Assembly: GCF_013283745.1 (NCBI RefSeq)
Contig: NZ_JABSTZ010000001.1
Location: forward strand, 700,406-764,405
Length of the DNA stretch: 64,000 bases
DNA from: Aeromicrobium stalagmiti
GTDB taxonomy: Bacteria > Actinomycetota > Actinomycetes > Propionibacteriales > Nocardioidaceae
Reading direction: 5' to 3'
Numbering within the stretch: position 1 is the first letter of the stretch; every line of letters begins with the position of its first letter. Below the pieces are notes generated by a model, which had not been told where the DNA came from, did no database searches, and saw nothing but the letters and a program-made list of their open reading frames with translations. The position numbers were made by a program, and so were the translations under genes. Of this stretch, positions 4,135 through 31,812 are shown one piece after another.

Positions 4135-6251
4135 GCGATCCGGGCGCTCCAGCGATCGGTCGTGCCCACGGTCGTGAGCAGCTGGGTCGCACGCGTCAGG
4201 ACGACGTAGAGCGTGCGCCAGCCGGCACTCGACTCATCAGTGATGCCGTCGGGCTCGACGACGACGACGCCGTCGAACTCCAGGCCCTTGGTGTCGAGGC
4301 CGTCGAGCACGCGCAGCCGGTCAGGGTGCTGGTCCATGAGGTCGGCGAGATCGACCCGCAGGGCCGCGAGCCGAGAACGCGGCGCCACGATCGCGACCGT
4401 GCCGTCGACCCGGTCGAGGACCTGTCGGGCACTGCTCCTGACGGTCTCGACCAGCTCGGACGCCCCCACCGTCAGGTGCAGCGGCGACTCGCCCGTGCGG
4501 CGGACCGCGTCGGCGAGGTCGGGATCGGGCACGGCGACGGCCGCGACCTTGGCGGCGAGCTCGTAGATCTCGGCGGAGTTGCGGTAGTTGGTCGACAGCC
4601 GGAAGGCGTGCTCGGGCTTGCCCTCGAGGGCGGCCTTGCGGGCGGCGGCGGACTCGTGCGGGTAGGGCCACGACGACTGCGCCTCGTCGCCGACGATCGT
4701 CCAGCTGGCGTGGCGCCCGCGACGACCCAGCATGCGCCACTGCATCGGCGAGAGGTCCTGCGCCTCGTCGACGAGGACGTGCGCGAAGCCGTCGTCCTCG
4801 ATGCTCTGCGTCGAGCGGAAGCGGTCGACCCGCTCCTCGCGCTCGCGCCGCTCGAAGCTCATGAGCTGCTTGGGGTTGTCGTCCTCGTCGTCGGTGGCCT
4901 CCGGGACCTCGCCGATGACGTAGCGGAGCTCGTCGATCAGCGGGACGTCCTGGATGCTCGGGTCGTCGATCGTCCACGACTCCCGGAGCGCCGCGATCTC
5001 GCGGGCGTTGAAGGCCCCGTGGGAGAGCTCCTGGACGAGGTCGGGCAGGGTGCGCCAGACGTCGATCGGGGTGGTGGGCGGCCACCACTGTTCGACGAAG
5101 TCGACGAAGCGGTCGTCGGTCGTGATGATCTCGACGAACTCCTCCTCGCCCTTCTCCAGCGCCCGCTCGCCCCGGACCTGGCGCCAGAGGGCGTCGACCA
5201 AGGCGGCCGGCGCCTTGGCGTAGGCCCGGTTGCGCTTGGCGCCCGCGAGCAGCTGGCGGCGGATGCGGTCGAGCTGCGCGGCGTCGAGGCGCAGGACGTC
5301 GTCCTTGTAGAAGTAGCGGAACTCCGTCGGAGATCCCGGCGCCGGTGCCGCGGCCGCACGGCCGAGGAACTTGACCATGCGGGACGACCCCTTGGCCGCG
5401 GCGGCGACGGGCTCGTCGTGGCGGGCGGCCCGCAGGCCGTCGACGACCTCGCCGAGCGAGCGCAGCGTCACGCTGGTCTCGCCGAGGCTCGGCAGCACCC
5501 GCTCGATGTAGTTCATGAAGACCGTGGACGGACCGACGACCAGCACGCCGCCGGACTCGAAACGGCGTCGATCGGTGTAGAGCAGGTAGGCCGCACGATG
5601 CAGCGCGACGACGGTCTTGCCGGTGCCCGGGCCACCGCCGATCGTGGTGGCGCCACGGCTCGGCGCGCGGATCGCCTCGTCCTGCTCCTTCTGGATCGTG
5701 GCGACGACCGAGTGCATCGTGCTGTCGCGGGCGCGGGTGAGGCTGGCGAGCAGTGCGCCCTCACCCACGATCACGAGGTCGTCGGGGGCGTTGTCGGCGT
5801 CGAGCAGGTCGTCCTCGACACCGATGACCTGGTCGTTGGCGCAGCGCAGCACTCGGCGACGGATGACGCCGGTCGGCTCCTGGGCCGTGGCCTGGTAGAA
5901 GAGCGCGGCGGCCGGGGCCCGCCAGTCGATCAGCAGGATCTCGCGCTCGGCGTCGCGCACCCCGATGCGGCCGATGTAGCGCGACTCGCCGTTCAGCATG
6001 TTGAGGCGGCCGAACACCAGGCCGTCGTGGGCGGCGTTGAGCGCCGAGAGCCGCTTCGAGGCCTGGTAGACCATGGCGTCGCGCTCGACGAGCCCGCCCT
6101 CGTTGCCGACGTGACCGCGCGCCAGACCCTCGACGACGAGGGACTGGGCGACCTTGGCCGAGGCGTCGAGGCGCTCATAGACCGTGTCGACGTACGCCTG
6201 CTCCGCAGCGATCTCGCGCTGCTCCGCGGTCCGTGCGTCCTGTACGCCCAC
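4131..6251 (-). CDS. helD: HelD-like RNA polymerase-associated UvrD/Rep superfamily ATPase
   Basis: A 706-residue protein with an N-terminal coiled-coil arm (AEQREIAAEQAYVDTVYERL), a HelD-typical block (GRIGVRDAEREILLIDWRAP), Walker A GGGPGTGKT near residue 205, Walker B/DEAQ (HVLVDEAQDLSPMQW), FRLSTNYRN and the C-terminal VVLTRATQ helicase motif. HelD-family proteins bind RNA polymerase and eject it from stalled or drug-bound complexes; the actinobacterial HelR branch gives rifamycin tolerance. The 19-bp rifamycin-associated element typical of helR promoters was looked for upstream and not seen, so a housekeeping HelD role is as likely. It is the first gene of a two-gene operon with the metallophosphoesterase. 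Confidence 0.85.
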   Translation of the reverse strand: MGVQDARTAEQREIAAEQAYVDTVYERLDASAKVAQSLVVEGLARGHVGNEGGLVERDAMVYQASKRLSALNAAHDGLVFGRLNMLNGESRYIGRIGVRDAEREILLIDWRAPAAALFYQATAQEPTGVIRRRVLRCANDQVIGVEDDLLDADNAPDDLVIVGEGALLASLTRARDSTMHSVVATIQKEQDEAIRAPSRGATTIGGGPGTGKTVVALHRAAYLLYTDRRRFESGGVLVVGPSTVFMNYIERVLPSLGETSVTLRSLGEVVDGLRAARHDEPVAAAAKGSSRMVKFLGRAAAAPAPGSPTEFRYFYKDDVLRLDAAQLDRIRRQLLAGAKRNRAYAKAPAALVDALWRQVRGERALEKGEEEFVEIITTDDRFVDFVEQWWPPTTPIDVWRTLPDLVQELSHGAFNAREIAALRESWTIDDPSIQDVPLIDELRYVIGEVPEATDDEDDNPKQLMSFERREREERVDRFRSTQSIEDDGFAHVLVDEAQDLSPMQWRMLGRRGRHASWTIVGDEAQSSWPYPHESAAARKAALEGKPEHAFRLSTNYRNSAEIYELAAKVAAVAVPDPDLADAVRRTGESPLHLTVGASELVETVRSSARQVLDRVDGTVAIVAPRSRLAALRVDLADLMDQHPDRLRVLDGLDTKGLEFDGVVVVEPDGITDESSAGWRTLYVVLTRATQLLTTVGTTDRWSARIA

Positions 6252-6530: not shown

Positions 6531-7793
6531 ATGAAGCTGCACCACCACGTCCGTGTCCCGGCCCTGCTGCTCGGGGTGATCGCCCTGCTCCTCGCCGGGC
6601 TGACGCTGCCCGCCCACGCCGCGACCAAGAACGCCACCGTCAAGGGCGTCGTCACCGTCGACGGCACGCCGATCAAGGGCGTGACGATCGAGCTGTACGT
6701 CACCGGCGACGACGGCTACCAGGAGCCTCGAGTGGCTACCGCTGTCACCGACAGCAAGGGCGCGTACTCCATCAGGTTCAGCCCGACGAACCCCATCGAC
6801 GTGTACGTCGGCAGCACGATCCTGATCAAGGACCCCCAGTACCGGATCGTCTCGACCTCCCGCCGGTTCATGGGTGTCGCCAACAAGACCGTCACGCGCA
6901 ATGCCTCGGTCAAGAAGGCAGGCTCGATCACCGGAACGGTCAAGCGAGGCGACGGCAAGGCCACCGGCCTGCTGCGCGTCGTGGCCGACGGACCGTCGTC
7001 GAGCATCGATCCCGGTCGCGACCTCCCGATCAACTACGACCAGGACGTCAAGGTCGCAGCCGATGGATCTTTCGCGCTCCGCGGCCTGCCCTCCGGGAAC
7101 TTCTCCCTGCAGTCCGTCGACGACGGCCAGACCTACTTCTCCCAGTGCTACGACAACCTCATCCAGGGTGACGAGCCCTGCATCGAGCAGGACGCTGCCA
7201 CGACGGTCCCGCTCGCGACGGGTCAGAACGTCACGCTCGAACCGCAGACGCTGTCGACCGCCGGACACCGCATCTCCGGCATCGTCACCGACACGTCCGG
7301 TCGCCCGATCGGCCACACGACCGTCGAGGCGACGCAGGACGGCGGCTCCGACCGGTTGAACGACCGCAACCACCCGACCACCGGCGCGTTCCGGATCGGC
7401 CCGCTGTCGGGCGACGGCTACCGTCTGACCGCGAAGCCCGACTTCCCGTGGGCGCCGCAGACCGCCGACTCCGTGATCGACGTCAGCGGCGGTGACGTCA
7501 CCGGCGTCCAGATCAAGGTCAAGTCGCAGGCCACGATCAAGGCGACCCTCACGCCGGGCACCGGCACCGTCAAGGTCGCGGTCGACGTCACCCGCGCGGC
7601 CACGGGCAGCAAGCCCAGCGGCAAGGCGACGATCCGCTGGGGAACCATCTCCAAGACCGTCGACCTGGTCGACGGCAAGGGCACCGTCAAGCTGCAGGGC
7701 CTGCCGGCCGGCAAGCGTCAGATCACGGTGTCCTACGCCGGCACCTCCTCGACGGCGGCCGCCACGAAGCTCTTCTACGCGACAGTGAAGTGA
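6531..7793 (+). CDS. Secreted protein with carboxypeptidase-regulatory-like repeats and an Ig-like tail
   Basis: A 420-residue exported protein. The start ATG 6531 gives a clean signal peptide (MKLHHHVRVPALLLGVIALL...LPAHAA); longer upstream reading has no signal. The mature part is a run of beta-sandwich repeats of the carboxypeptidase-regulatory-like type (VKGVVTVDGTPIKGVTIELY, ITGTVKRGDGKATG, ISGIVTDTSGRPIGHTTVEA), each followed by an aromatic-rich segment such as GQTYFSQCYDN. Two cysteines about 16 residues apart (QCYDN, EPCIEQ) may form a disulfide. The last 85 residues (VKVAVDVTRAATGSKPSGKA...) resemble a bacterial Ig-like domain. No anchor or sortase signal is visible. It is followed after one base by a close paralog. 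Probably a surface or matrix adhesion protein; ligand unknown. Confidence 0.8.
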   Translation: MKLHHHVRVPALLLGVIALLLAGLTLPAHAATKNATVKGVVTVDGTPIKGVTIELYVTGDDGYQEPRVATAVTDSKGAYSIRFSPTNPIDVYVGSTILIKDPQYRIVSTSRRFMGVANKTVTRNASVKKAGSITGTVKRGDGKATGLLRVVADGPSSSIDPGRDLPINYDQDVKVAADGSFALRGLPSGNFSLQSVDDGQTYFSQCYDNLIQGDEPCIEQDAATTVPLATGQNVTLEPQTLSTAGHRISGIVTDTSGRPIGHTTVEATQDGGSDRLNDRNHPTTGAFRIGPLSGDGYRLTAKPDFPWAPQTADSVIDVSGGDVTGVQIKVKSQATIKATLTPGTGTVKVAVDVTRAATGSKPSGKATIRWGTISKTVDLVDGKGTVKLQGLPAGKRQITVSYAGTSSTAAATKLFYATVK

Positions 7794-7794
7794 C

Positions 7795-9096
7795 ATGAGG
7801 CTCATGCGGCTCAAGCATCCCTTCCTGCTCCTCGGGGCAGCCGCCGTCGTCGTCGCCGGGCTGGCACTGCCGGCCCAGGCGGCGTCGACCGGCGGGGTCA
7901 AGGGCGTCGTCGCGCTCGATGGCGTGCCGGTCAAGGGGCTGAAGGTCTACCTGCAGCAGTCACAGGACGACGGCGACTACTACGAGCCGATCAAGGTCGA
8001 CACGACCAACAGCAAGGGCGCCTACTCGTTCTCCGGCTTCCCGGTCGGAGAGGCCTACGGCTACACCGTGCTGGTCACCGACTCGACCCACCGGGTGGTC
8101 AAGGCCCGCCGGTCCTTCGCCGACCGCGCGGGCAGGGCCGTCACCCGCAACGTCACGGTCAAGAAGGCAGCCCGCCTCTCCGGCAGGATCACCCGCCAGG
8201 ACGGCGGCACCCTCTCGAAGGTCAGGGTCCTGCTCGACGGGCCGGACGACGAGATCGGCACGCCCGACACCACGGTGCTGTCCTACGACGACGAGATCGT
8301 GCCGGCGGGCGACGGCACGTTCGTCGCCCGGGGACTGCCCGCCGGCTCGTACGACATCCGGTTCACCGACGGCACCCAGACATACGTCGACCAGTGCTAC
8401 GACGACGTCGTGGCCGGCACCGACGAGCTCGCCCTCGCGCTCTGCGACGCCGAGCACACGCCTGACGCGACCGTCACGACGCTGGCCGGCGGCGACGCAC
8501 GAAGGCTGGAGGCGCAGACGTTCACCCACCGCGCCAACCAGATCAACGGCACCGTGACCGACACCTCCGGCCGGCCGCTCAAGGACATCTCGGTCTCGCC
8601 GGTTCGTGTGGGCGACCCCGACACGTCCGTGTTCTGGGCCGCCAGCACGAGGTCCACCGGAGCGTTCAGGACCGCTCAGTTCCCTGACGGCCAGTACGAC
8701 CTGGTGGCCGAGGACCGATCAGGGCGTTGGGCCACCCAGTGGTTCGACGGAGCGCCCAGCCGGGACGGCGCGACGACGTTCGACATCGTCGGCGAGGTCG
8801 TCACGGGGATCGTCGTCGAGCTCAAGTCGCGGGCCGAGATCGACGCCCCGATCACGCCCGGCACCGGCAGGGCGAAGGTGGCCGTCGACGTCACCCGGGC
8901 CGCGACCGGCAGCAAGCCGACGGGCTCGGTGACCGTCCGGTGGGGCACCGTGAAGAAGACCTTCAGCTTGGTCGCGGGCCGCGGCAGCGCCACCCTGTCC
9001 GGCCTGCCCCCGGGCAGACGTCAGATCACGGTGACGTACGCCGGCACCCCCGCGACCGCAGCCGCCAGCGCGACGTTCCTGACGACGGTGAAGTAG
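7795..9096 (+). CDS. Secreted carboxypeptidase-regulatory-like repeat protein, paralog of the preceding gene
   Basis: A 433-residue protein with signal peptide (HPFLLLGAAAVVVAGLALPAQAA). Domain order matches its upstream neighbour: VKGVVALDGVPVKGLKVYL, LSGRITRQDGGTL, INGTVTDTSGRPLKDISV, then the Ig-like tail with KVAVDVTRAATGSKPTGSV, nearly identical to the neighbour's. The cysteine segment is also kept (QTYVDQCYDD then LALCDAEH). It starts one base after the previous stop, so the two form one transcription unit that arose by tandem duplication. No catalytic residues are recognisable. The similarity of the tails suggests either recent duplication or gene conversion. Confidence 0.8.
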   Translation: MRLMRLKHPFLLLGAAAVVVAGLALPAQAASTGGVKGVVALDGVPVKGLKVYLQQSQDDGDYYEPIKVDTTNSKGAYSFSGFPVGEAYGYTVLVTDSTHRVVKARRSFADRAGRAVTRNVTVKKAARLSGRITRQDGGTLSKVRVLLDGPDDEIGTPDTTVLSYDDEIVPAGDGTFVARGLPAGSYDIRFTDGTQTYVDQCYDDVVAGTDELALALCDAEHTPDATVTTLAGGDARRLEAQTFTHRANQINGTVTDTSGRPLKDISVSPVRVGDPDTSVFWAASTRSTGAFRTAQFPDGQYDLVAEDRSGRWATQWFDGAPSRDGATTFDIVGEVVTGIVVELKSRAEIDAPITPGTGRAKVAVDVTRAATGSKPTGSVTVRWGTVKKTFSLVAGRGSATLSGLPPGRRQITVTYAGTPATAAASATFLTTVK

Positions 9097-9159: not shown

Positions 9160-10002
9160 GTGCGCAAGACTCTCGGACTCCTCGCTGCTCTGGCGCTCGT
9201 CGCCGCCCCGCTCGTCGCGATGCCGCTGGACGCCGCCCACGCCGGCTCGACCCGCTACAAGGTGTCGGCGTCGGTCAGCGACGACAAGCTCGACCTGACG
9301 TCCCACGACGGGTCGAACCGGTCCACGCGCATCCGCGGCAAGGTGACGGGCGGGCCCGTCAAGGGCCGGAAGGTCGGCATCTACGCCCGCAACGTCAGCA
9401 CCAAGGCGGCGAAGCGGCACTACCTCGGGTCGGCACGCCTGTCGTCGACCGGACGGTTCTCGTGGACGTGGCGGCCGCGCGACGGCGGCCGCTACGAGAT
9501 CGACGTCGTCAAGAAGGCCGGCAGCGGCAAGGCCGGCGGAAGCGACCCGACCCGGGTCTACGTCTTCCAGTTCGTCAGCCTGAAGTACCTGTACGACAAG
9601 GCCGCCAGCTCCGGCGCGGGATACGTCGATCGCGAGAAGTTCGGCAACGGCACCTACTACCGCGACGGCTACCACGTGAACGGCGGCGGCAGAGCGGTCT
9701 TCGACATCACCGGCTTCCACTGCATGCGCTTCAACTTCAAGACCGGCCTCTCCCTGAAGAGCGAGGCGTCCCGCGGCACGGTGAGGGCCCGACAGGCCAC
9801 CACCCACTTCGCTCGCGAGATGAAGGCCGGCGAGGTCTACAAGGCCACCTCGACGGTGCAGAAGAAGCTGACCGCGACCGGCAAGCTGATCTTCTCGGTC
9901 GACCGCCGCGACGACATCGACGACCAGAGCAGGCTGCGCTTCGTCATCGGCCGTCCGGTCGCCGCCTGCACCTACCCGACGGACTCCGAGCCCTTCCGCT
10001 GA
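9160..10002 (+). CDS. Secreted two-cysteine-domain protein, first of six tandem paralogs
   Basis: A 280-residue exported protein starting at GTG 9160 with signal peptide (MRKTLGLLAALALVAAP...AHA). After it come an Ig-like beta domain (IRGKVTGGPVKGRKVGIYAR, LGSARLSSTGRF, YEIDVVKKAGSG), a linker with VFQFVSLKYLYD, and a C-terminal domain of about 110 residues (YHVNGGGRAVFDITG, HCMRFNFKTGLS ... ACTYP). The only two mature cysteines, C188 and C270, flank this domain and probably form a disulfide. Its strand pattern recalls carbohydrate-binding NPCBM domains, but this is inference. Its promoter region carries the perfect inverted repeat just upstream. No anchor is visible; function unknown. Confidence 0.75.
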   Translation: MRKTLGLLAALALVAAPLVAMPLDAAHAGSTRYKVSASVSDDKLDLTSHDGSNRSTRIRGKVTGGPVKGRKVGIYARNVSTKAAKRHYLGSARLSSTGRFSWTWRPRDGGRYEIDVVKKAGSGKAGGSDPTRVYVFQFVSLKYLYDKAASSGAGYVDREKFGNGTYYRDGYHVNGGGRAVFDITGFHCMRFNFKTGLSLKSEASRGTVRARQATTHFAREMKAGEVYKATSTVQKKLTATGKLIFSVDRRDDIDDQSRLRFVIGRPVAACTYPTDSEPFR

Positions 10003-10043
10003 TCTGCCGGGCGAAAGGGGGTGCGCCGGCGGGCGGGCCGCCC

Positions 10044-10049
10044 TACGCT
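10044..10049 (+). promoter_or_regulatory. -10 box of the second secreted paralog
   Basis: TACGCT fits TANNNT and lies about 40 bases before GTG 10090, similar in position to the -10 candidates of the first and third paralogs (9119 and 10963). The ribosome site is AAGGTGA at 10079-10085. Confidence 0.4.
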
Positions 10050-10089
10050 CACGGGGAGACGACACTCCCCACCAGTCAAGGTGATCCCT

Positions 10090-10911
10090 GTGCGCACGAC
10101 ACTCCTGCTCCTCGCCTCCGCCGCCCTCGTCGCAGCCCCGCTGGGCGCGGCCCACGCCGCCGGCTCCTACTCCGTCAGTGCCGGGGTGAGTGACGACAAG
10201 CTCGACCTGACCTCGGCTGACGGATCCAACCGCAGCACCCACATCAAGGGGCGCGTCACCGGCGGTCCCGTCTCGGGCAAGCGCATCTACTTCTACGCCA
10301 GCAACGAGAGCTCGACCGACAAGAAGTACGTCTACATCGGCTCGGACGCGCTCTCGTCGTCCGGACGGTTCGACAAGGTCTGGAAGCCGGTCGAGGGCGG
10401 CAGCTACAAGATCAAGGCCGTCAAGAAGGCCGGCTCTGGCAGGAAGGAAGGCTTCGACTACACCCGCGTCCAGGTCTTCAACTACACGAACCTCGCGAGG
10501 TTCTACGACGACGACAACCCACGGGTGACGCGCGTCGACAAGGCCGGCAAGGTCGGCGACGACTACTGGTCGACCGCCTACCAGATCCTCGGGGACACCA
10601 CGGCGGTGTTCGACACAGCGGGCTACAAGTGCTTCCGCATCAACTTCAAGATCGGGATGGCGAACGACTCGGCAGGCGGCACACACGCGTTCCGCGTCTA
10701 CCAGGGCGACACGACGATCATGAGTGGCCAGATGGAGAAGGGCCAGAAGTTCCGCGAGCCGTCCAAGGAGCAGCAGGCTCGGATGAACGCGACCCAGGTC
10801 GTGCGTGTCCAGATCCAGGCCGACGGCAACGCCGACCAGACCAAGTTCATCCTCGGCAACCCCAAGGCCGCGTGCACCTATCCGCTCACGAACGACCCGG
10901 AGGATCAGTAG
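10090..10911 (+). CDS. Secreted two-cysteine-domain protein, second tandem paralog
   Basis: A 273-residue exported protein. Start GTG 10090 was chosen because AAGGTGA stands five bases upstream and it gives a clean signal peptide (MRTTLLLLASAALVAAPLGAAHA); earlier in-frame starts add charged sequence. It is the closest relative of the first paralog: VSDDKLDLTSADGSNRSTHI, RVTGGPVSGKRIYFYA and VKKAGSGR align directly. C-terminal cysteines are C181 (YKCFRINFKIG) and C262 (ACTYP). Segment 144-165 is more acidic than in the paralog (FYDDDNPRVTRVD). Probably folds as an Ig-like domain plus a disulfide-clamped ligand-binding domain; role unknown. Confidence 0.75.
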   Translation: MRTTLLLLASAALVAAPLGAAHAAGSYSVSAGVSDDKLDLTSADGSNRSTHIKGRVTGGPVSGKRIYFYASNESSTDKKYVYIGSDALSSSGRFDKVWKPVEGGSYKIKAVKKAGSGRKEGFDYTRVQVFNYTNLARFYDDDNPRVTRVDKAGKVGDDYWSTAYQILGDTTAVFDTAGYKCFRINFKIGMANDSAGGTHAFRVYQGDTTIMSGQMEKGQKFREPSKEQQARMNATQVVRVQIQADGNADQTKFILGNPKAACTYPLTNDPEDQ

Positions 10912-10962
10912 TCCTTCCTGATCAATTCTCCGGAGTTTCCGCGCCGATCGACTGGTCGCACC

Positions 10963-10968
10963 TACCCT
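10963..10968 (+). promoter_or_regulatory. -10 box of the third secreted paralog
   Basis: TACCCT fits TANNNT, 43 bases upstream of GTG 11012. Between the two, CCCTGAGGGGAC and CCCCTGAGGTGT give imperfect repeats around the CTGAGG ribosome site. Confidence 0.4.
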
Positions 10969-11011
10969 GAGGGGACCTAAGTCCCTCTTCTTCCCCTGAG
11001 GTGTCCCGATC

Positions 11012-11923
11012 GTGCGCAAGCTCTTCATCCTGCTGGCCGCCGCCGCGGTGGCCATCGGCGTCCTGAGCCCGGCCGAGGCGGCGGGGACGTACAAGATCTC
11101 GCTGGACCCGGCTCCGGCCGGCAAGACCAGCACCACGAAGAGCTACAACGACACCGCGCTCGACGTCAGCGAGGACACCGATGACGGCCGCCAGAAGACG
11201 ACCATCCGCGGGCGGGTGTCCGGCGGGCCCGTGAAGGGTCAGCGGGTCGTCATCTACGCCACCAACACCAACCTGGCCGATGCGCCGCGCGTGCGACTCG
11301 GCTCGGCCACCCTGTCGTCGTCCGGCGTGTTCACCAAGGCGTTCAGCCCCGGCCACGACCACGCGGGCGTCTACCGGATCGAGATCGTCAAGGCCGCGAG
11401 CGGCGACGTCGCCGGCACCACGAAGACGTTCCGGATCCGGGTCTTCCAGTTCGTCGAGATGCGCAACGTCTACGACACGGACGCGAGCGTGCGTGCCAGC
11501 AGGGGCGGCGTGGGCGAGGCCGACAAGGAGAAGTTCGGCCGCAACAGCATCTACGGACAGTCGTACTTCATCAACGGTGACTCGCGGGCCGTCTTCCGGA
11601 CGGCCGGCTACAACTGCATGCAGCTGAACTTCAAGATCGGGATCTCCCACCAGTCGAAGGTCGGCGGCAAGTTCGCCGTCCTGCTCAACTCCGACACCCT
11701 CGTCTCGACCCGGTCGATGAGCAAGGGCCAGCGTCACTACGAGCCCTCGAGGACGACGCAGAAGAAGATGCGCAGCAGCGCCGACGTCACCGTCCGGGTC
11801 TCGCGCTACAGCGACGGCGACCCCGACACCGTCGACGACCAGCGCCGCCTGCGCTACGTCCTCGGGCGCCCGATGGCCTCGTGCACCTATCCCGTCGTCG
11901 GCCAGGCCGTGCCCACCCCATGA
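11012..11923 (+). CDS. Secreted two-cysteine-domain protein, third tandem paralog
   Basis: A 303-residue exported protein with GTG start and signal peptide (MRKLFILLAAAAVAIGVLSPAEAA). It opens a second subtype: an insert DPAPAGKTSTTKSYNDTALD followed by VSEDTDDGRQKTTIRG, absent from the first two, precedes the common Ig-like core (VSGGPVKGQRVVIYATN). The C-terminal domain has SYFINGDSRAVFRTAGYN, CMQLNFKIGISHQS and RRLRYVLGRPMASCTYP, with cysteines at 202 and 291. The RRLRYVLG-type strand before the last cysteine is shared across the first four paralogs. Its own -10 candidate lies upstream, so each copy may be separately controlled. Function unknown. Confidence 0.75.
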   Translation: MRKLFILLAAAAVAIGVLSPAEAAGTYKISLDPAPAGKTSTTKSYNDTALDVSEDTDDGRQKTTIRGRVSGGPVKGQRVVIYATNTNLADAPRVRLGSATLSSSGVFTKAFSPGHDHAGVYRIEIVKAASGDVAGTTKTFRIRVFQFVEMRNVYDTDASVRASRGGVGEADKEKFGRNSIYGQSYFINGDSRAVFRTAGYNCMQLNFKIGISHQSKVGGKFAVLLNSDTLVSTRSMSKGQRHYEPSRTTQKKMRSSADVTVRVSRYSDGDPDTVDDQRRLRYVLGRPMASCTYPVVGQAVPTP

Positions 11924-11958
11924 CCCTCCACCCGACCTGCTCACCGAAGGTGCCCACC

Positions 11959-12840
11959 ATGCGCAAGGCCCTGATCGCCCTCGCCGGAGCCACCGTGCTG
12001 CTGGGTCTGTTCTCGCCCGCAGAGGCGGCGACGAGGACGTACTCGATCGTGCTCAACCCTGCCCCGGCCGGCAAGACCGACCCCGCCAAGAGCTACAACG
12101 ACACCGCGCTCGACGTCAGCGAGGACACCGACGACGGACGACAGAAGACGCGGATCAAGGGCTACGTCAAGCGCGGCAAGGTCGCCTCGACCGGGACGGT
12201 CAAGATCTATGCCACCAACACCTCCACGAACGCCAAGACGCGCAAGCTCCTCGGGTCGGTCACGCTGAGCAAGAGCGGCTACTTCACCCGGACGTTCGAT
12301 CCCGGCCACGACAACGCCGGCATCTACAAGATCGAGATCGTCAAGGGCGGCGGCAGCGGCTACGCGACGACCACCAAGACGTTCCACATCCGCGTCTTCC
12401 AGTTCGTCGAGGCGATGAACGAGTACGTCCCCGGTCAGCCCGGCGTCACCTACGTGCAGGATGCGATCCCGGCGTACGGGACGAAGTACGACCAGTCCTA
12501 CCTGGTCGACGGCGGGTCGACCGTGGAGTTCGACTTCACCGGCTACACCTGCCTGCAGTTCAACTTCAAGATGACGCGGGCCTCGAACGCCACGACGGAC
12601 GGCGAGTTCGCGGTGAGTCTGGGCAGCACGTTCTTCGTGCCGCAGTGGCAGCCGCTCTACGGCGAGCAGTACACCGCACCCAGCTCGGTGCAGAAGCTCA
12701 TGACGTCGGGTGGCAAGCTGCGTTTCGCCGTCAAGGCGCACGACGACATGGACGGGCAGACCGTCGACGACAATCAGCAGGTCACCATGATCCTCGGGCG
12801 TCCGATGGTGTCCTGCACGTACCCCGTGATCAACCCGTAG
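11959..12840 (+). CDS. Secreted two-cysteine-domain protein, fourth tandem paralog
   Basis: A 293-residue exported protein; ATG 11959 follows a GAAGG ribosome site and gives the signal peptide MRKALIALAGATVLLGLFSPAEAA. Its mature N-terminus (LNPAPAGKTDPAKSYNDTAL, DVSEDTDDGRQKTRIKG) is almost identical to the third paralog, showing recent duplication, while the C-terminal domain has diverged (SYLVDGGSTVEFDFTGYT, CLQFNFKMTRAS ... VSCTYP; cysteines 198 and 286). The conserved N-terminal and variable C-terminal halves suggest that the C-terminal domain is the ligand-contacting part. It is 35 bases from the third paralog and probably cotranscribed with it. Confidence 0.75.
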   Translation: MRKALIALAGATVLLGLFSPAEAATRTYSIVLNPAPAGKTDPAKSYNDTALDVSEDTDDGRQKTRIKGYVKRGKVASTGTVKIYATNTSTNAKTRKLLGSVTLSKSGYFTRTFDPGHDNAGIYKIEIVKGGGSGYATTTKTFHIRVFQFVEAMNEYVPGQPGVTYVQDAIPAYGTKYDQSYLVDGGSTVEFDFTGYTCLQFNFKMTRASNATTDGEFAVSLGSTFFVPQWQPLYGEQYTAPSSVQKLMTSGGKLRFAVKAHDDMDGQTVDDNQQVTMILGRPMVSCTYPVINP

Positions 12841-12901
12841 GCACGGGGTGGGGTTTTCACCCAAAGAACGGCGAGACACCCCCGACGGCTCGAAACGGTC
12901 C

Positions 12902-12907
12902 TAGCCT
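12902..12907 (+). promoter_or_regulatory. -10 box giving a leaderless transcript for the fifth secreted paralog
   Basis: TAGCCT is exactly six bases before GTG 12914. There is no ribosome site between, so the mRNA probably starts at the GTG. Confidence 0.5.
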
Positions 12908-12913
12908 GCGAGA

Positions 12914-13744
12914 GTGCGCAAGATCCTCGTCGTCATCTCCGCCCTCGCCCTGAGCCTCGGCCTCGCCCCGTCCGCCCAGGCGGCCAAGAAGTTCACCGTC
13001 TCCTCGAAGCTCGAGGACACGTCGCTCACCTTCGGCCAGCAGCAGCGGGTGACCGGCTCCGTCTCGCCGGCCTCGCCGGGCAAGACCGTCAAGGTCTACA
13101 TCCACTACGCCAGTGACTCCGACGGCGAGTACCACTACCTCGGCAAGTCGACCCTGAGCGCGTCGAGCAGGTTCTCCAAGTCGTTCACGCCGACCGACAG
13201 TGGCACCACGAAGATCAAGGTCGTCAAGGCCGCGTCCGGCTCCCGCGCGTCGGGCAGCAGCACCAACAGCTTCAAGAACTACGGCTACCGCCGGCTCAGC
13301 ACCCTGCCCCGCACCATCGAGAGCGGCGTCGTGGCCAACGACGACACCTTCACGATCGGCGGCCTCGACTCGACCGACGGCTACCGCTTCCAGGGCGGCA
13401 ACGGTCGGGCCCGCTGGTCCACGTCGGGCCAGTGCAAGGAGTTCGTCGGCTACGGCGGCGTCCCCGACAGCTCGACCGGCACGCAGGCGTCCGCCAACTA
13501 CTTCGCCAGGGCGACGGCCACCGGGGCCGTTCTCGTCAAGCACGAAGGCCCCTTCCAGCAGACCGGCGACCGCGAGACCATCCGGATGAAGCTCTACAAG
13601 AAGACCGACTCGGGCTACACCTTCGCCCGGTACCTCCAGATCGCCACCCAGGAGCAGGGCGGGGTCGAGCCGCGGTACGGGCTGCTCGCGACCTATCTGC
13701 ACTGCAACCTGCCCGGCGCCGAGATCGATCCCAACCTCGCCTGA
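12914..13744 (+). CDS. Secreted two-cysteine-domain protein, fifth tandem paralog
   Basis: A 276-residue exported protein, signal peptide MRKILVVISALALSLGLAPSAQA. It opens a third subtype: the mature start KKFTVSSKLEDTSLTFGQQQ leads into an Ig-like domain (RVTGSVSPASPGKTVKVYIH, YHYLGKSTLSASSRFSKSF, KIKVVKAASGS). In the C-terminal domain the final motif is CNLPG instead of CTYP, but the two cysteines keep their spacing (C174 in GQCKEFVGYGGVPDSS, C264). The segment after the first cysteine (VGYGGVPDSST) is the part most like NPCBM ligand-binding domains. GTG is the start of a probably leaderless mRNA. Confidence 0.75.
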   Translation: MRKILVVISALALSLGLAPSAQAAKKFTVSSKLEDTSLTFGQQQRVTGSVSPASPGKTVKVYIHYASDSDGEYHYLGKSTLSASSRFSKSFTPTDSGTTKIKVVKAASGSRASGSSTNSFKNYGYRRLSTLPRTIESGVVANDDTFTIGGLDSTDGYRFQGGNGRARWSTSGQCKEFVGYGGVPDSSTGTQASANYFARATATGAVLVKHEGPFQQTGDRETIRMKLYKKTDSGYTFARYLQIATQEQGGVEPRYGLLATYLHCNLPGAEIDPNLA

Positions 13745-13779
13745 CGCGAGCAGCCACCCCTCCTGAACGGACCACTGAC

Positions 13780-14610
13780 ATGCGCAAGATCCTCGTCCTC
13801 GTCGCCGGCCTTGCCCTGGGCCTCGGCTTCGCCTCGGCCGCCCAGGCGTCCCACAAGTTCACCGTCACCACCAAGCTCGAGAAGGGCTCGATCGAGCTCG
13901 GCGAGAAGCAGCGGGTGACCGGCTCGGTGTCTCCCGCGTCACCGGGCAAGACCGTCAAGGTCTACATCAACTACGCCAGCGACTCCGACGGCGAGTACCA
14001 CTACCTCGGCAGGTCGACCCTGAGCTCGTCGAGCACGTTCTCCAAGTCGTTCACCCCGCAGGACAGCGGCACGGCACGCGTCAAGGTCGTCAAGGCGGCA
14101 TCGGGATCGCGCGCGGCCGGCAGCAGCTCCAAGACCTTCAAGAACTACGCCTACCAGGTGCTCGAGAACCTGACCCGGAGCGTCAAGGCCGGCGTCGTGC
14201 AGTACGCCGATCCGCTCAGCTACCGCGAGGACTACGCGAACCTCAACGGATCGCGGTTCCTCTCAGGTGGCCGCGCCACGTGGGACCTGCGCCACCAGTG
14301 CAAGTCCGTCATCACCCTCGCCGGCGTGCCCGACACCTCGTCGAGCGACACCTTCGCCCAGGGCGTCTTCTCCGCCGAGACGAGCGGTGACAGCGTCCTC
14401 AAGAGCCGCACGAGCGCCGTCCTGTACTGGGACGAGGTGCCGGCCACGATCGAGATGAACCTCTACAAGAAGTCGGGCTCGACCTACACCTTCGCCCGGT
14501 ACCTCGAGATCTCGACGCAGGTCAGCGGCTCGACCAACCCGGCATTCGCCACGGCGTCGACCAACGTGCTGTGCAACCTGCCGGGTGGATTCCCGGCCGA
14601 TCTCGACTGA
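13780..14610 (+). CDS. Secreted two-cysteine-domain protein, sixth tandem paralog
   Basis: A 276-residue protein, the same length as the fifth paralog and strongly alike through the signal peptide (MRKILVLVAGLALGLGFASA) and Ig-like domain (RVTGSVSPASPGKTVKVYIN, SDSDGEYHYLGRSTLSSS). The C-terminal domain diverges (RATWDLRHQCKSVITLAGVP, then LYKKSGSTYTFARYLEIST, VLCNLPG); cysteines are 174 and 265. The conserved LYKK-x3-YTFARYL block is shared only with the fifth copy. It is the last gene of the array and runs into a hairpin shared with the convergent ABC transporter operon. Function unknown. Confidence 0.75.
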   Translation: MRKILVLVAGLALGLGFASAAQASHKFTVTTKLEKGSIELGEKQRVTGSVSPASPGKTVKVYINYASDSDGEYHYLGRSTLSSSSTFSKSFTPQDSGTARVKVVKAASGSRAAGSSSKTFKNYAYQVLENLTRSVKAGVVQYADPLSYREDYANLNGSRFLSGGRATWDLRHQCKSVITLAGVPDTSSSDTFAQGVFSAETSGDSVLKSRTSAVLYWDEVPATIEMNLYKKSGSTYTFARYLEISTQVSGSTNPAFATASTNVLCNLPGGFPADLD

Positions 14611-14634
14611 CCTGACACAGACCAGGCTCAGGTC
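14609..14634. terminator. Possible terminator between convergent operons
   Basis: GACCTGA (14609-14615) and TCAGGTC (14628-14634) pair across a 12-base loop and overlap both stop codons. The stem is short and without a U tract, so this is tentative. Confidence 0.35.
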
Positions 14635-15395
14635 GGGTTGAGGATGCGCTGGAGGAACTGGCGCGTCCGCTCCTCACGGGGATCGGCGATCACCTGCGCC
14701 GGTGGGCCGCTCTCGACGACGACCCCGCCGTCGAGGAACAGCACCTGGTCGGCGACCTGCTCGGCAAACCTGATCTCGTGCGTGACGATGACGGTCGTCC
14801 ACCCCTGGGTGGTGAGGTCCTTGATGACCGACAGCACCTCGCCGACGAGCTCGGGGTCGAGCGCGGAGGTCGGCTCGTCGAACAGGACGACCTGGGGCTT
14901 CAGCGCGAGCGCCCGGGCGATGCCGACCCGCTGCTGCTGGCCGCCGGAGAGCTGGAACGGGTGCTGGTCGGCCTTGTCCGCCAGGCCCACCTGGTCCAAC
15001 AGGGCGCGCGCGTCGGCGACGGCCTCGTCGACCGGACGCTTCTGCACCTGCACGGGGCCCTCGACGACGTTCTCGAGCACCGTCTTGTGGGGAAAGAGCT
15101 GGTGGGACTGGAACACCATGCCGCTCTGCGCCCGCAGCCGCGACGAGGCGGCGCGCCCCGCCTTGCCGGCGGGCAGGGTCGAGAAGTCGATCTCGACGTC
15201 ACCGATCCCGACCGTGCCGGCGTCGGGGGTCTCCAGGACGTTGAGCGATCGCAGGATCGTGGTCTTGCCGGAGCCGGAGGGCCCGAGCACCGCGGTCGTC
15301 GTGCCTGCGTCGGCGGTGAAGTCGATGCCGCGGAGCACATGGTTGTCGCCGAACGACTTGTGGATGCCGCGTGCGCGGACGAGGGGGTCGGTCAT
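14628..15395 (-). CDS. Polar amino acid ABC transporter ATP-binding protein
   Basis: A 255-residue ATPase with Walker A (GPSGSGKTTIL), Q-loop in MVFQSHQLFPHKTVLENV, signature LSGGQQQR, Walker B VVLFDEPTSALDPE and switch His in VIVTHEIRFA. It belongs to the HisP/GlnQ/TcyC class that energises uptake of glutamine, histidine, cystine and similar solutes. The start at 15395 overlaps the stop of the fused binding-protein/permease gene by 4 bases (ATGA), so the two form one operon and translation is coupled. Longer reading upstream in this frame is out-of-frame sequence of the neighbour. Confidence 0.9.
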   Translation of the reverse strand: MTDPLVRARGIHKSFGDNHVLRGIDFTADAGTTTAVLGPSGSGKTTILRSLNVLETPDAGTVGIGDVEIDFSTLPAGKAGRAASSRLRAQSGMVFQSHQLFPHKTVLENVVEGPVQVQKRPVDEAVADARALLDQVGLADKADQHPFQLSGGQQQRVGIARALALKPQVVLFDEPTSALDPELVGEVLSVIKDLTTQGWTTVIVTHEIRFAEQVADQVLFLDGGVVVESGPPAQVIADPREERTRQFLQRILNPT

Positions 15396-16858
15396 GACGC
15401 CACGAACCTGTTCAGTCGGGTCTCGAGCCTGCCCTGCACGAAGGACATGACCACGCAGACGATCCAGTAGTAGAGGGCCGCGAACGCGTACAGCGGCAGG
15501 AACACCTGGGCGGCTGCGGCAGCGTTCTGCGCCTCCCGGAGCACGTCGGTGAGCAGGACCACCGACAGCAGCGAGGTGTCCTTGAACAACGAGATCGCGG
15601 TGTTCGACAGCGGCGGCACGGCGGTGCGCGCAGCCTGCGGGAAGACGATGCGACGCAGCGTCTGCCAGTAGCCCATGCCGATCGTCGCCGCGGCCTCGAA
15701 CTGTCCCTTCGGCACCGAGAGGATCGCCGACCGCACGACCTCGGCCGCGTAGCCGCCGACGTTGAGGCTGAGCGCGACGACGCCCGCGACGTACGACGGG
15801 AAGTCGATCCCGATCTCGGGCAGGCCGAAGAAGACGATGAACAGCTGCACCAGCAGCGGGGTGCCGCGGATGATCGAGACGTAGCCACGGGCCAGGCCCG
15901 ACAGGACGCGGCTGCCGGAGATGCGCGCGAGCGCCACCACGACGGCGATGGCCAGGCCGATCACGAAGCTGATGATCGTGATCGGGATCGACACCTTGAT
16001 GAGGCCCTTGAGCATCGGCCACGCGGCGTCCCGGACGACCTCGGCGTCGCTCCTGGTCTGTCGACCTCCCGACACGTCGACGTCGCCGCCGTTCTCGACC
16101 GAGACGTCAGCCTTGAAGTAGGTGTCGGAGATCTTCGCCAGCGTGCCGTCGGCGCGCAGCTCCTCGAGCGCCCGATCGGCCTCGGCCAGGCGGGGGTCGC
16201 CCTGGCGGAACGCGAGCACCTGGCGGCTCACCTCGTCGCCGGCGTCCCCGACGATCTCGATCTCGTCGGAGCCCGTGGTGTTGAGGTAGTCGAGCACCGC
16301 GATGTTGTCGTTGACGATCGCGTCGACCCGCCCCTGCACGACGAGGGCCGCGGCCTGGGCGAATCCCTCGACGCCCTCGACCTTCGCACCGGCATCCTTG
16401 GCGACGCCCGCCCAGTTGCTGGTGATCGACTGCGCCGTCGTCCTGCCCTTCAGGTCGGCCAGCGTCGTGATGCCCTGGGTGCCGGTCTTCACGACGATGA
16501 CGCCGCGGGAGTACGTGTAGGGCTCGGAGAGCCCGTACTTCGCCTCGCGCTCGGGGTTGATCGAGACCTGGTTGGCGATGACGTCGATCCGGTCGGACTC
16601 CAGGGCCGCGAAGATCGCGTCGAACTGGGTCTCGACGAACTGCAGGCGCCAGCCGGCCTTCTTCGCGACCGCCGTGATGACGTCGATGTCGTAGCCGGTC
16701 AGCTCGTTGTCGCCCGACTCGTGGAACGTGAAGGGCGGGTAGGTGCCCTCCGTGCCGACCCTGACCAGGGGTCGGTCGTCCGCGGCCTGGGCGGACCCCA
16801 CCGGGAGCATGACCAGGGCCAGCAGACCCAGGACCATGAGCTTGATCGCGTGCCGCAT
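15392..16858 (-). CDS. Fused solute-binding protein and permease of a polar amino acid ABC transporter
   Basis: A 488-residue fusion. Residues 1-25 form a signal peptide (LMVLGLLALVMLPVGSAQA). Residues 28-250 are a family 3 binding protein (VRVGTEGTYPPFTFHESG, GYDIDVITAVAKKAG, SDRIDVIANQVSINPER, GVIVVKTGT), closest to cystine/polar amino acid binders. After a linker, residues 280-488 are a HisM/GlnP-type permease (VRGTPLLVQLFIVFFGLPE-like core as IIRGTPLLVQ, the EAA loop EAAATIGMGYWQTLRRIVFPQA). One polypeptide therefore supplies both ligand capture and the channel, as in the GlnPQ systems of Lactococcus. The substrate cannot be fixed from sequence. GGAGGAGACAC precedes the ATG. Confidence 0.88.
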   Translation of the reverse strand: MRHAIKLMVLGLLALVMLPVGSAQAADDRPLVRVGTEGTYPPFTFHESGDNELTGYDIDVITAVAKKAGWRLQFVETQFDAIFAALESDRIDVIANQVSINPEREAKYGLSEPYTYSRGVIVVKTGTQGITTLADLKGRTTAQSITSNWAGVAKDAGAKVEGVEGFAQAAALVVQGRVDAIVNDNIAVLDYLNTTGSDEIEIVGDAGDEVSRQVLAFRQGDPRLAEADRALEELRADGTLAKISDTYFKADVSVENGGDVDVSGGRQTRSDAEVVRDAAWPMLKGLIKVSIPITIISFVIGLAIAVVVALARISGSRVLSGLARGYVSIIRGTPLLVQLFIVFFGLPEIGIDFPSYVAGVVALSLNVGGYAAEVVRSAILSVPKGQFEAAATIGMGYWQTLRRIVFPQAARTAVPPLSNTAISLFKDTSLLSVVLLTDVLREAQNAAAAAQVFLPLYAFAALYYWIVCVVMSFVQGRLETRLNRFVAS

Positions 16859-16963: not shown

Positions 16964-18571
16964 CTACCTGATCGTGATCCTGCTCGTGGTCACGCTCCTG
17001 GCGAGCACGCGGGTGTCACCGGCATAGGCGACCGTGTAGGAGCGTCGGCCCTTCGGCTGGTTCCTGACCGTCACGGTGACCTTGCCACCCTTGAGCGTCA
17101 CGGTCTTCAACGTCCTGGTGCCCCTCTTGATCGCGACCTTGCCGGTCGGCGTGACACCCGAGGCCCTGACCGTGATCGCGAACGTCGCCTTGCCCGTGCC
17201 CCCGGTGGCGCTGACCCTGACCGAGGCGGACTTCTTGACGACGACCTTCTGCAGCACGACGTCGCCGACGACCCGGCTCCCGCCCGCCGGGACGGTGACG
17301 TCGGCGAGCGTCCGCGTGACGTAGCGGTGCAGGCCGTCCTTGACGACCAGGCGGTACGTGCCGGCGTGCAGCCGCCGGACCGTGAAGGCCCCGTTCGTGT
17401 CCGTGTAGTCGAACGACGCCACCTGGGCGCCGACCGTGCCGTTGACGACCCGGAACGCGTCGACGTTGATGTCGCCGAGGGGTGCGCCCGCCGCGCTGTG
17501 CACGGTGCCGGTCACCGTGGCCGTCCGCTCCAGCCGGGAGAGTCCGAGCAGCTGGACCGCGCCCGCCGCCACCGTGACGGTGCTGGCGGTCGCCTCGGTC
17601 GCGTCGCCGTCGTAGAACTGGTCGAAGTAGGCGTCAGAGCCCTCCGAGAGGCTCACCTTGTACGAGCCGGCCGGGAGCCCCGCGACCGTGTAGTCGCCGG
17701 TGCTCGGGTCGACGAGGGCCGAGTAGGCGTTGTCCCGGTCGAGCGACCCGTCGCCCAGGACCCGGATCGCGGTGATGCTGGGATCGACCACCCGGCCGCC
17801 CGCGTCGTCCTGGAGCACCCCGATGAGCCTGGCGCCGACCGCGAGCGTGATGTCACCGAGCGGGGTCGTCTGCGCCTTGACGACAGTGACCGACTGCGCC
17901 GTCGCCAGATCGGTGTGGTCGGCGTAGTACTCGGTGACGTACATCCCGAAGATGTCGGTGATGCGGACCTTGTAGACGCCGGCGGCCACGCCCTGCAGCA
18001 CGAAGGCACCGGAGATGTCGGCCTTGGTGGAGACCGACCGGTCCTCGTCGACGCCCGATCCGAGGACGGGCAGGGCCGTGACCTGCGCCGCGAGGATCGG
18101 CGTGCCCGTGCCGGCTGCGACGACGCGCCCCGACAGCGAGCCGCCGATCTTCTGCTCCAGGACCACGGACCGGTCGGCGCTGAGCGTGAACGGCATGCTC
18201 GTGACGGTGGCGAAGCCGTCGATGCCGTGGGCGCGTACCCGGTAGGTCGCGCCCGAGACTGCCGGGTCGAACGCAAAGGCACCGGAGCCGCTCGTCGAGG
18301 CAGACGCGACGGTGTCGAAGGACTCGCCCCCTGCGTCGTACTGCTGGAGCTCGACCGTCACGTCGGCGAGCGGACCTGCCCCCTCGCCGCCCACCGTGCC
18401 TGACACGACGAACGAGGTCGCCGCCTCGGCGGGGACGACGCCCAAGGGGCCGAGGACGAGCGACAGTGCCGCGACGAGCGACCCGACGACGCGCTGGACG
18501 AGGGATCGGCGGACACGCGGTCGGCGGACACGGGTGCGTCGCGGCGCGACGACCGACGGGGAAGAGGTCAT
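16964..18571 (-). CDS. Secreted carboxypeptidase-regulatory-like repeat protein
   Basis: A 535-residue exported protein. The N-terminus is unusually basic (RRTRVRRPRVRRSLVQRVVG) before the hydrophobic core and cut site (LGPLGVVPAEAA). The rest is at least four carboxypeptidase-regulatory-like repeats (VSGTVGGEGAGPLADVTVEL, LSGRVVAAGTGTPILAAQVT, LIGVLQDDAGGRVVDPSI, VTGTVHSAAGAPLGDINVD), separated by segments such as DAYFDQFYDGDATEATAST. It ends in an Ig-like domain (PTGKVAIKRGTRTLKTVTLK) related to the tails of the two genes at 6531-9096. The cysteines of those genes are missing here (QFYDG for QCYDN). Likely a surface fibre or scaffold; no enzyme domain is present. Confidence 0.8.
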   Translation of the reverse strand: MTSSPSVVAPRRTRVRRPRVRRSLVQRVVGSLVAALSLVLGPLGVVPAEAATSFVVSGTVGGEGAGPLADVTVELQQYDAGGESFDTVASASTSGSGAFAFDPAVSGATYRVRAHGIDGFATVTSMPFTLSADRSVVLEQKIGGSLSGRVVAAGTGTPILAAQVTALPVLGSGVDEDRSVSTKADISGAFVLQGVAAGVYKVRITDIFGMYVTEYYADHTDLATAQSVTVVKAQTTPLGDITLAVGARLIGVLQDDAGGRVVDPSITAIRVLGDGSLDRDNAYSALVDPSTGDYTVAGLPAGSYKVSLSEGSDAYFDQFYDGDATEATASTVTVAAGAVQLLGLSRLERTATVTGTVHSAAGAPLGDINVDAFRVVNGTVGAQVASFDYTDTNGAFTVRRLHAGTYRLVVKDGLHRYVTRTLADVTVPAGGSRVVGDVVLQKVVVKKSASVRVSATGGTGKATFAITVRASGVTPTGKVAIKRGTRTLKTVTLKGGKVTVTVRNQPKGRRSYTVAYAGDTRVLARSVTTSRITIR

Positions 18572-31011: not shown

Positions 31012-31812
31012 TCAGTCGTCCTCGGGGAACGCGCAGTAGGCCTGCGGCTTCGAGGCGTTGACATAGGTCGGCACCAGGTCGTTGCGGGCCTCGGCGCTGA
31101 AAGTCAGCGTCCGGGTCACCGCGCGGGGGACGGCCACGTCGACAGCGGTCATCGTCCCCTTCTTGACCCGCAGGCTGACGATCCGGTCCTGGTCGGCCAG
31201 GACCCTGAACTGCGCGTCGGCGCCGGCGTCGGACCGGTCGTCGAGCCCCACGTTGACGCGCAGACGCTTGCACGTCTCGAGCGTGGCCCACTGCGTCCTG
31301 CCGTTGGCGGTCGCGCCGGTCGACCAGTAGCGCGTGACCGGGATGCCCGCGACGGTCTGCGGACCGTACTGACCCTTGAGGCTCGCCCCGTAGTTGACGA
31401 ACAGCTCCGGCTCGTTGGCCATCTTGTACCAGGCGTATGCCCGCAGGACGACGCTCGAGCTCGCCGCACCGGCGAGGCCCGAGACGGACGGCTTGTAGAC
31501 GCGATAGCTCGTGCTGCCGTCGCGCGGCGTGACGGTCTTGGCGTAGGCGCCGCCCGACTTCACGGTGGTGGTCGCGACGGTGCGCCAGCGGTCGCCCCCC
31601 TGGTCACGGTCGAAGAACTGGATCTTGACGATCGAGCCCTTCGCGGACGGTTCGACCGTGCCGGAGAACACGACCGTGTCGCCCTGTCTGATCTCCGTCT
31701 TCGAGACCGAGAGGCTCACCTCGTAGGAGCCGGCCGCCTGGGCCTGGGACAGGAAGGCGGCGGGGACGATCGCCACGGCGACCGCGGTGCAGAGGACTGC
31801 GAGCTTGCGCAT
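31012..31812 (-). CDS. Secreted two-cysteine-domain protein, dispersed seventh paralog
   Basis: A 266-residue exported protein, signal peptide MRKLAVLCTAVAVAIVPAAF...AQAA, ribosome site AAGGAGC. It shares the layout of the tandem array at 9160-14610: an Ig-like domain (VSLSVSKTEIRQGDTVVFSG, VEPSAKGSIVKIQFFDRDQG), a linker, and a C-terminal domain bounded by its only two mature cysteines, C181 (ETCKRLRVNVGLDDRSD) and C260 (YCAFP). Here the NPCBM-like pattern after the first cysteine (VGLDDRSDAGADAQFRVLAD) is clearer than in any other copy. Sequence identity to the array is low, so it is an older relative. Confidence 0.75.
   Translation of the reverse strand: MRKLAVLCTAVAVAIVPAAFLSQAQAAGSYEVSLSVSKTEIRQGDTVVFSGTVEPSAKGSIVKIQFFDRDQGGDRWRTVATTTVKSGGAYAKTVTPRDGSTSYRVYKPSVSGLAGAASSSVVLRAYAWYKMANEPELFVNYGASLKGQYGPQTVAGIPVTRYWSTGATANGRTQWATLETCKRLRVNVGLDDRSDAGADAQFRVLADQDRIVSLRVKKGTMTAVDVAVPRAVTRTLTFSAEARNDLVPTYVNASKPQAYCAFPEDD

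Follow-up and report, generated by a model that had tools for sequence, protein, structure and literature searches.

Here, we report a family of small secreted-looking proteins in Aeromicrobium stalagmiti, encoded by six tandem genes (M1–M6) at positions 9160–14610 of a 64,000-nucleotide stretch of contig NZ_JABSTZ010000001.1 (the window, i.e., the whole stretch that was analyzed) and by a seventh gene, M7, elsewhere in the window. The C-terminal domain (C-domain) of these proteins is, by profile comparison, an NPCBM module (PF08305, CAZy CBM51) that has diverged strongly, with homology shown at the level of the family. Our preferred reading, to which we give a probability of about 0.7, is that they are exported proteins joining an Ig-like domain to a diverged NPCBM/CBM51 domain, multiplied in one chromosomal slot, whose C-domains most likely bind extracellular glycans.

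The gene cluster and its products

The seven genes were read as open reading frames (ORFs); AlphaFold2 models are available for two of them.

9160–10002, + strand: M1, 280 amino acids (aa), Cys 188/270, C-domain 9562–9999; ORF and AlphaFold2 model; counterparts in genomes G012 and G030
10090–10911, + strand: M2, GTG start at 10090, 273 aa, Cys 181/262 (numbered from 10090), C-domain 10474–10908; ORF
11012–11923, + strand: M3, 303 aa, Cys 202/291, C-domain 11441–11920; ORF
11959–12840, + strand: M4, 293 aa, Cys 198/286, C-domain 12394–12837; ORF; counterpart in G012
12914–13744, + strand: M5, 276 aa, Cys 174/264, C-domain 13277–13741; ORF and AlphaFold2 model; most diverged subtype
13780–14610, + strand: M6, 276 aa, Cys 174/265, C-domain 14143–14607; ORF
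31012–31812, − strand: M7, the seventh member, 266 aa, mature Cys 181/260, C-domain 31015–31440; above the Pfam NPCBM cut-off

All seven proteins begin with a signal-peptide-like segment, which is followed by an Ig-like domain and by a C-domain with exactly two mature cysteines; M7 carries an additional cysteine, C8, inside its signal peptide. Signal peptides were called by eye (M-R-K, a hydrophobic run, and A-x-A) rather than by a predictor. An earlier note on this DNA had listed six tandem ORFs and a seventh member at 31012–31812; places, order, strand, and cysteine positions of the six were all reproduced, and the seventh ORF is present with its mature cysteines where they had been placed. 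The note's view of the proteins as secreted-looking two-domain paralogs that arose by tandem duplication is supported as well. From M1 to M6, the intergenic gaps are 87, 100, 35, 73, and 35 bases, and full-length identity is 44% for M1/M2, 51% for M3/M4, and 58% for M5/M6.

A Pfam scan of the seven window proteins gave no domain indicating an anchor or an enzyme. The N-terminal domain resembles bacterial Ig-like domain group 3 (PF16640, Big_3_5), which was second to NPCBM in a one-by-one Pfam scan of 53 relatives (described below; 9/53 at E ≤ 0.1); within the window set, only M5 (11.5 bits) and M7 (15.3 bits) matched it at E ≤ 1, both under the cut-off of 35.5. Matches to DNA gyrase B, fibrillarin, UrcA, and PEP-CTERM families in Pfam and NCBIfam were weak, all under cut-offs, and were set aside.

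The C-domain matches NPCBM through its relatives

Sixty-four matching ORFs were collected with a seven-row model, and the 53 with at least two cysteines beyond residue 20 and a length of 240–370 aa were kept as relatives; the 11 dropped rows were two short pieces of one contig and nine proteins with a match in the Ig part only, and further full-length matches exist outside the 53. As the canonical side, we took 30 actinobacterial NPCBM domains, i.e., the loci returned for the best matches of a class-wide search (a match at E ≤ 1e-8 in 44 of 197 genomes), which are not a random sample; alignment A8 holds 19 of them, all with a cysteine pair, leaving out the eight without the pair plus L064, L089, and L091.

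M7 passes the Pfam cut-off for PF08305 (26.4 bits against 23.9; model positions 43–121 of 137 covered), in keeping with the NPCBM resemblance that the earlier note had seen in this protein. Scanned one by one, 17 of the 53 relatives had NPCBM at E ≤ 0.1, the top family, and a model of the 30 canonical domains found 35 of the 53 at E < 0.01 (search space, 53 sequences), with M2 (0.0014) and M3 (0.0094) both under this value. The comparison with NPCBM that the note had proposed was also run profile against profile: the 53 C-domains matched canonical NPCBM at 97.8% with 19 domains and at 98.0% with 30, both cysteines being in register. With every cysteine replaced by X, the match was 96.9% (E 1.6e-10), the first cysteine column remaining in register and the alignment ending before the second. 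Taken by group against the 19 canonical domains, the M7 group reached 96.2% and the remaining mixed group 97.7%; among 20 column shuffles per group, the shuffles being made per group only, none exceeded 0.9%. In the reverse direction, the C-domain profile matched at E ≤ 1e-6 in 62 of 296 genomes of the class, many of these matches lying at canonical NPCBM places (e.g., in G246, G257, G266, and G247), where at most 13 candidates per genome were scored.

The divergent subtypes are tied to the rest of the family. The M5/M6 group matched all other family members at 97.1%, and models built with a subtype held out found all three M5/M6-type and all 17 M1–M4-type domains at E ≤ 3.9e-7 and at least 27.7 bits (M5, E 5.8e-10; M6, E 1.6e-10), while the best of 2000 shuffled decoys had E 0.01 and at most 13.4 bits.

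Several results weigh against an NPCBM assignment. M1–M6 gave no match to PF08305 at E ≤ 1 in Pfam, and with the 30-domain model M6 (0.038), M1 (0.065), M4 (0.42), and M5 (0.84) all stayed above 0.01. Compared alone with NPCBM, the M1–M4 group reached 43.2%, and the M5/M6 group 1.0% in one comparison and 0.2% in another, which is not significant. Among Protein Data Bank (PDB) chains, the family profile found 7js4 as the only one below E 0.001 (5.8e-4). The C-terminal tryptophan, in a DHADWA-type end, is present in 19 of 19 canonical domains, which had been chosen for their cysteine pair, and in only one of the 53 relatives. Because the M5/M6 and M1–M4 groups are weak on their own, the link to NPCBM runs through the relatives; and because M1–M6 are below the cut-off, are linked in this way, and have lost the tryptophan, we file them as an NPCBM-like variant, an assignment that rests on sequence profiles. 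For discoidin or F5/F8 type C domains, PF00754 and PF22633 were each matched at E ≤ 0.1 by two of the 53 relatives, with best E values of 0.052 and 0.042, and M1–M7 had no match to either family at E ≤ 1 in Pfam.

With the tryptophan lost in 52 of the 53, the known sugar-binding mode may be lost too. The C-domain may then keep an NPCBM-like fold that no longer binds sugar and serve as a structural or protein-binding module of a cell wall or extracellular matrix protein. We consider this unlikely, though it deserves to be kept in mind: residues conserved in canonical NPCBM are gone, the seven window proteins have no catalytic domain, and the C-domain branches of M5 and M6 are long; yet, in the vGvDD-like region, the glycine is kept in 46 of the 53 relatives and the second aspartate in 35, the cysteine pair is widely kept, and a partner protein is not known.

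Divergence of the Ig and C halves

Within the most similar tandem pair, change is much faster in the C-domain than in the Ig domain. M5 and M6 are 77% identical in the Ig domain and 36% or 43%, depending on alignment, in the C-domain, and their end branches measure 0.13 each in the Ig tree against 0.67 and 0.72 in the C tree. M1/M2 (59% Ig, 29% C) and M3/M4 (63%, 36%) have the same trend, which M1/M3 (43%, 41%) do not. The earlier note had sorted the six copies into three pairs with a diverging C-terminal half. The second part of that statement holds, the C half differing more than the Ig half in all three named pairs; the first does not, the copies being not simply three pairs in quick trees of 23 proteins. 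These trees join M5 and M6 (Shimodaira–Hasegawa-like approximate likelihood ratio test, SH-aLRT, 95 and 89) and place M4 with its G012 counterpart (SH-aLRT 86 and 100); M1 is grouped with the G012 and G030 proteins that correspond to it, and M2 with the gene that stands first in other species. The Ig and C trees of the window mostly agree; the deep joins of the C tree are not reliable, since long branches come together in it. Within the window, four-fold sites gave no clear difference between the two halves, and a recent conversion of the Ig halves was rejected.

Outside the window, the second copies of G006 and G047 suggest replacement of the C-domain. Their bases are 88–98% alike through the signal peptide and the Ig domain, 75% in the boundary block, and 47–67% after it. 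The Ig tree rejects the G006 second copy grouped with the first copies (approximately unbiased (AU) test, p 0.002); the C tree prefers exactly this grouping, yet a sister relationship of the second copies is not rejected by it (AU p 0.129). The two copies of G024 are rejected as sisters by the C tree (p 0.001) but not by the Ig tree (p 0.465). Domain exchange in this family is thus suggested, not proven.

These observations bear on two related ideas. One is a secreted lectin repertoire of the Nocardioidaceae, in which C-domains on a constant Ig carrier would be replaced or rapidly re-diversified at a fixed boundary, in arrays at fixed places; we regard it as a rather doubtful, tentative proposal. 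The other, which seems to us improbable, is an exchangeable recognition repertoire, i.e., tandem copies that would swap or re-diversify the C-domain on the Ig carrier, for example against phages, predators, or competitors. The sharp drop in base identity past the Ig/C boundary in G006/G047 and the M5/M6 contrast speak for such exchange, as does the proposal that NPCBM is an invader sensor in actinobacterial conflict systems (PMC8195603); the abstract of that paper, however, concerns intracellular sensing, and the window proteins are secreted-looking. The C tree and the mostly agreeing window trees also count against it. When nine tandem-array pairs were compared with 23 orthologous pairs for the speed contrast of the C-domain, the result was a borderline tendency (p 0.051), the pairs being hand-picked at no less than 50% Ig identity, sharing sequences, and not being independent. 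Finally, tblastn gave no match for M7 in phages or for M3 in plasmids, these being the only proteins searched.

The cysteine pair

Both cysteines are in register in all 53 aligned relatives, which exceeds what chance would give. As this set had been filtered for cysteines, a separate check without the filter was made on 20 new stretches with high-scoring matches (three from Aeromicrobium and 17 from other Nocardioidaceae), and 22 of 22 proteins carry both cysteines in register and no further one. Since A8 was chosen for the pair, the frequency in canonical NPCBM was taken from the full 30 domains: 22 have a cysteine at both columns and eight at neither, the pattern that a disulfide predicts. 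Twenty-one of the 22 two-cysteine canonical proteins end within three residues past the second cysteine (by reading), much like the window proteins.

The AlphaFold2 models (built with 13 sequences) suit this picture. Mean predicted local distance difference test (pLDDT) values are 83.4 for M1 and 79.5 for M5, whose C-domain is less certain, with ten-residue means from 57 to about 90. Both C-domains are mostly beta in the models; the first cysteine begins a strand (M1, 188–198; M5, 174–182), and the second ends a late strand (M1, 260–270; M5, 253–264). We infer that the C-domain is closed by a disulfide between the two cysteines, which would tie its first core strand to its last. In five PDB alignments (7js4, 2vmh, 2vmg, 7jrm, and 7jrl, of eight matched sequences), the cysteine at the first position is absent and the alignment stops just before the second; the disulfide frame therefore seems to be a mark of only some NPCBM members, among them many from actinobacteria, and is not universal.

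The earlier note had held the domain to be undescribed. That view gives way here to an NPCBM-like domain: many canonical actinobacterial NPCBM domains have the two-cysteine frame, and because it is shared with these bacterial relatives we see a fast-changing known module rather than a new domain. A new family unrelated to NPCBM, for which M1–M6 under the Pfam and NCBIfam cut-offs and the nonsignificant direct match of the M5/M6 group could be cited, is very improbable given the NPCBM matches in relatives, the two-way profile matches, the shared cysteine pair, the cysteine-masked control, and the held-out models.

Genomic slot, copy number, and distribution

The cluster lies between two genes that are conserved as neighbors of the family.

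4131–6251, − strand: UvrD-like helicase (PF00580), left boundary of the slot; adjoins family genes in other Aeromicrobium genomes
14628–16858, − strand: ABC transporter (ATPase; fused family-3 solute-binding protein and permease; PF00005, PF00497, PF00528), right boundary; conserved at the slot

The window has six copies between helicase and transporter; five loci have two (L040, L041, L042, L043, and L047) and three have one (L045, L056, and L057). Where the family adjoins the helicase and the transporter is out of view, L050 has five matches, one of which lies where the contig ends, and L061 has two. The M7 copy has its own locus, flanked by a DUF3352 gene and an alpha/beta-hydrolase-like gene (hydrolase-like by reading) in the window, L044, L046, and L053. 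In G025 (L062), the same two genes adjoin, and next to the DUF3352 gene comes a row of six tandem copies (L062, 2881–8553), each with the cysteine pair; this array at the M7 locus is a separate expansion from the window cluster. We read this as copies being gained and lost at fixed chromosomal places, i.e., as tandem duplication and loss that would act within the helicase–transporter slot and, for the M7 type, at another locus. The slot of G030 yielded a single family gene and no other complete one; this gene is followed by a short stretch matching profile positions 225–274 (G030:C1:3591616–3591765), which may be what is left of a copy since lost.

The window genome has nine matches, two of them beyond the window. 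Relatives of M1–M4 are found in A. endophyticum M2KJ-4, Aeromicrobium sp. Root472D3, and one metagenome-assembled genome, all Aeromicrobium. Within this genus, 39 of 49 genomes have some match at E ≤ 1e-5, Ig-only matches counted, and 24 have a full-length one by our own table count. Across the family Nocardioidaceae, where at most 10 candidates per genome were scored, matches at E ≤ 1e-10 occur in 119 of 245 genomes, which represent 10 of 26 genera; here, too, Ig-only matches are counted.

Three further secreted-looking proteins flank the cluster at 6531–9096 and 16964–18571; they combine carboxypeptidase-regulatory-like repeats with a Big_3_5-type Ig domain at the C terminus (above cut-off in two of the three); L056 has such a protein adjoining its single family copy.

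Upstream sequence elements

A palindrome, GGGACCTAAGTCCC, stands at 10972–10985, 26 bases upstream of the M3 start, and is the sole exact GGGACYWWRGTCCC site found in the genome; it resembles a DosR/DevR box. Its core GACYWWRGTC occurs within 150 bases upstream of seven of the 53 family genes, i.e., M3 and, in other species, six second genes that resemble M3/M4, but not M4, against a mean of 0.09 and a maximum of 2 in 1000 shuffles. Among the neighbors of near-matches, inspected by eye, no clear regulon emerged. Upstream of M1, a perfect 17-base inverted repeat (9110–9126/9143–9159) directly abuts the start codon; no repeat of this kind was reported for the upstream sequences of the counterparts in G012 and G030.

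Function and comparison with known systems

Under our preferred reading of exported glycan-binding proteins, each gene would give a small exported protein with a signal peptide, one Ig-like spacer, and a mostly beta NPCBM/CBM51-type C-domain. After duplication, the Ig domain would stay alike in the closest copies as the C-domain diverges faster, and the C-domains would bind extracellular glycans, be it of the own envelope, an exopolysaccharide, or an environmental polysaccharide; different copies may take different ligands, a possible division of labor. It is from the NPCBM literature that we infer extracellular glycan binding; the proteins may serve ligand recognition at the cell surface, as the earlier note had suggested. 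The window proteins have no enzyme domain, and no neighboring gene fixes their role. Literature searches on NPCBM, CBM51, NPCBM disulfides, and Aeromicrobium carbohydrate-binding, secreted, or Ig-like proteins gave, among the matches listed, no title or abstract beginning that describes this family.

The assignment leads proteins that are mostly unrecognized by Pfam and NCBIfam, widespread in Aeromicrobium, and present in other Nocardioidaceae to a known carbohydrate-binding family, and it indicates that the NPCBM frame can drift past Pfam detection and retain its cysteine pair. Should the C-domains differ in the glycans that they bind, the arrays would be a natural series for following how sugar specificity shifts after gene duplication. 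A diverged, expanding, secreted-looking family of this Ig plus NPCBM-like make merits a name of its own.

Among known systems, the closest is NPCBM/NEW2 (PF08305, CAZy CBM51), to which the C-domain is homologous by profile comparison and with which it shares the cysteine pair of 22 of the 30 actinobacterial examples; the window family differs in that M1–M6 are under the cut-off, the C-terminal tryptophan is lost, an Ig domain stands in front, and there is no catalytic domain. Solved structures matching the canonical NPCBM profile include 2vmg, 2vmh, 2vng, 2ygl, and 7js4, among others, and the family profile also matches 7js4 over one of its NPCBM stretches. An Akkermansia O-glycopeptidase carries a C-terminal NPCBM (PMC9513282). 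PMC8195603 presents NPCBM as a domain of discoidin-like lectin fold; the sensing described in its abstract is inside the cell, whereas the window proteins appear to be secreted.

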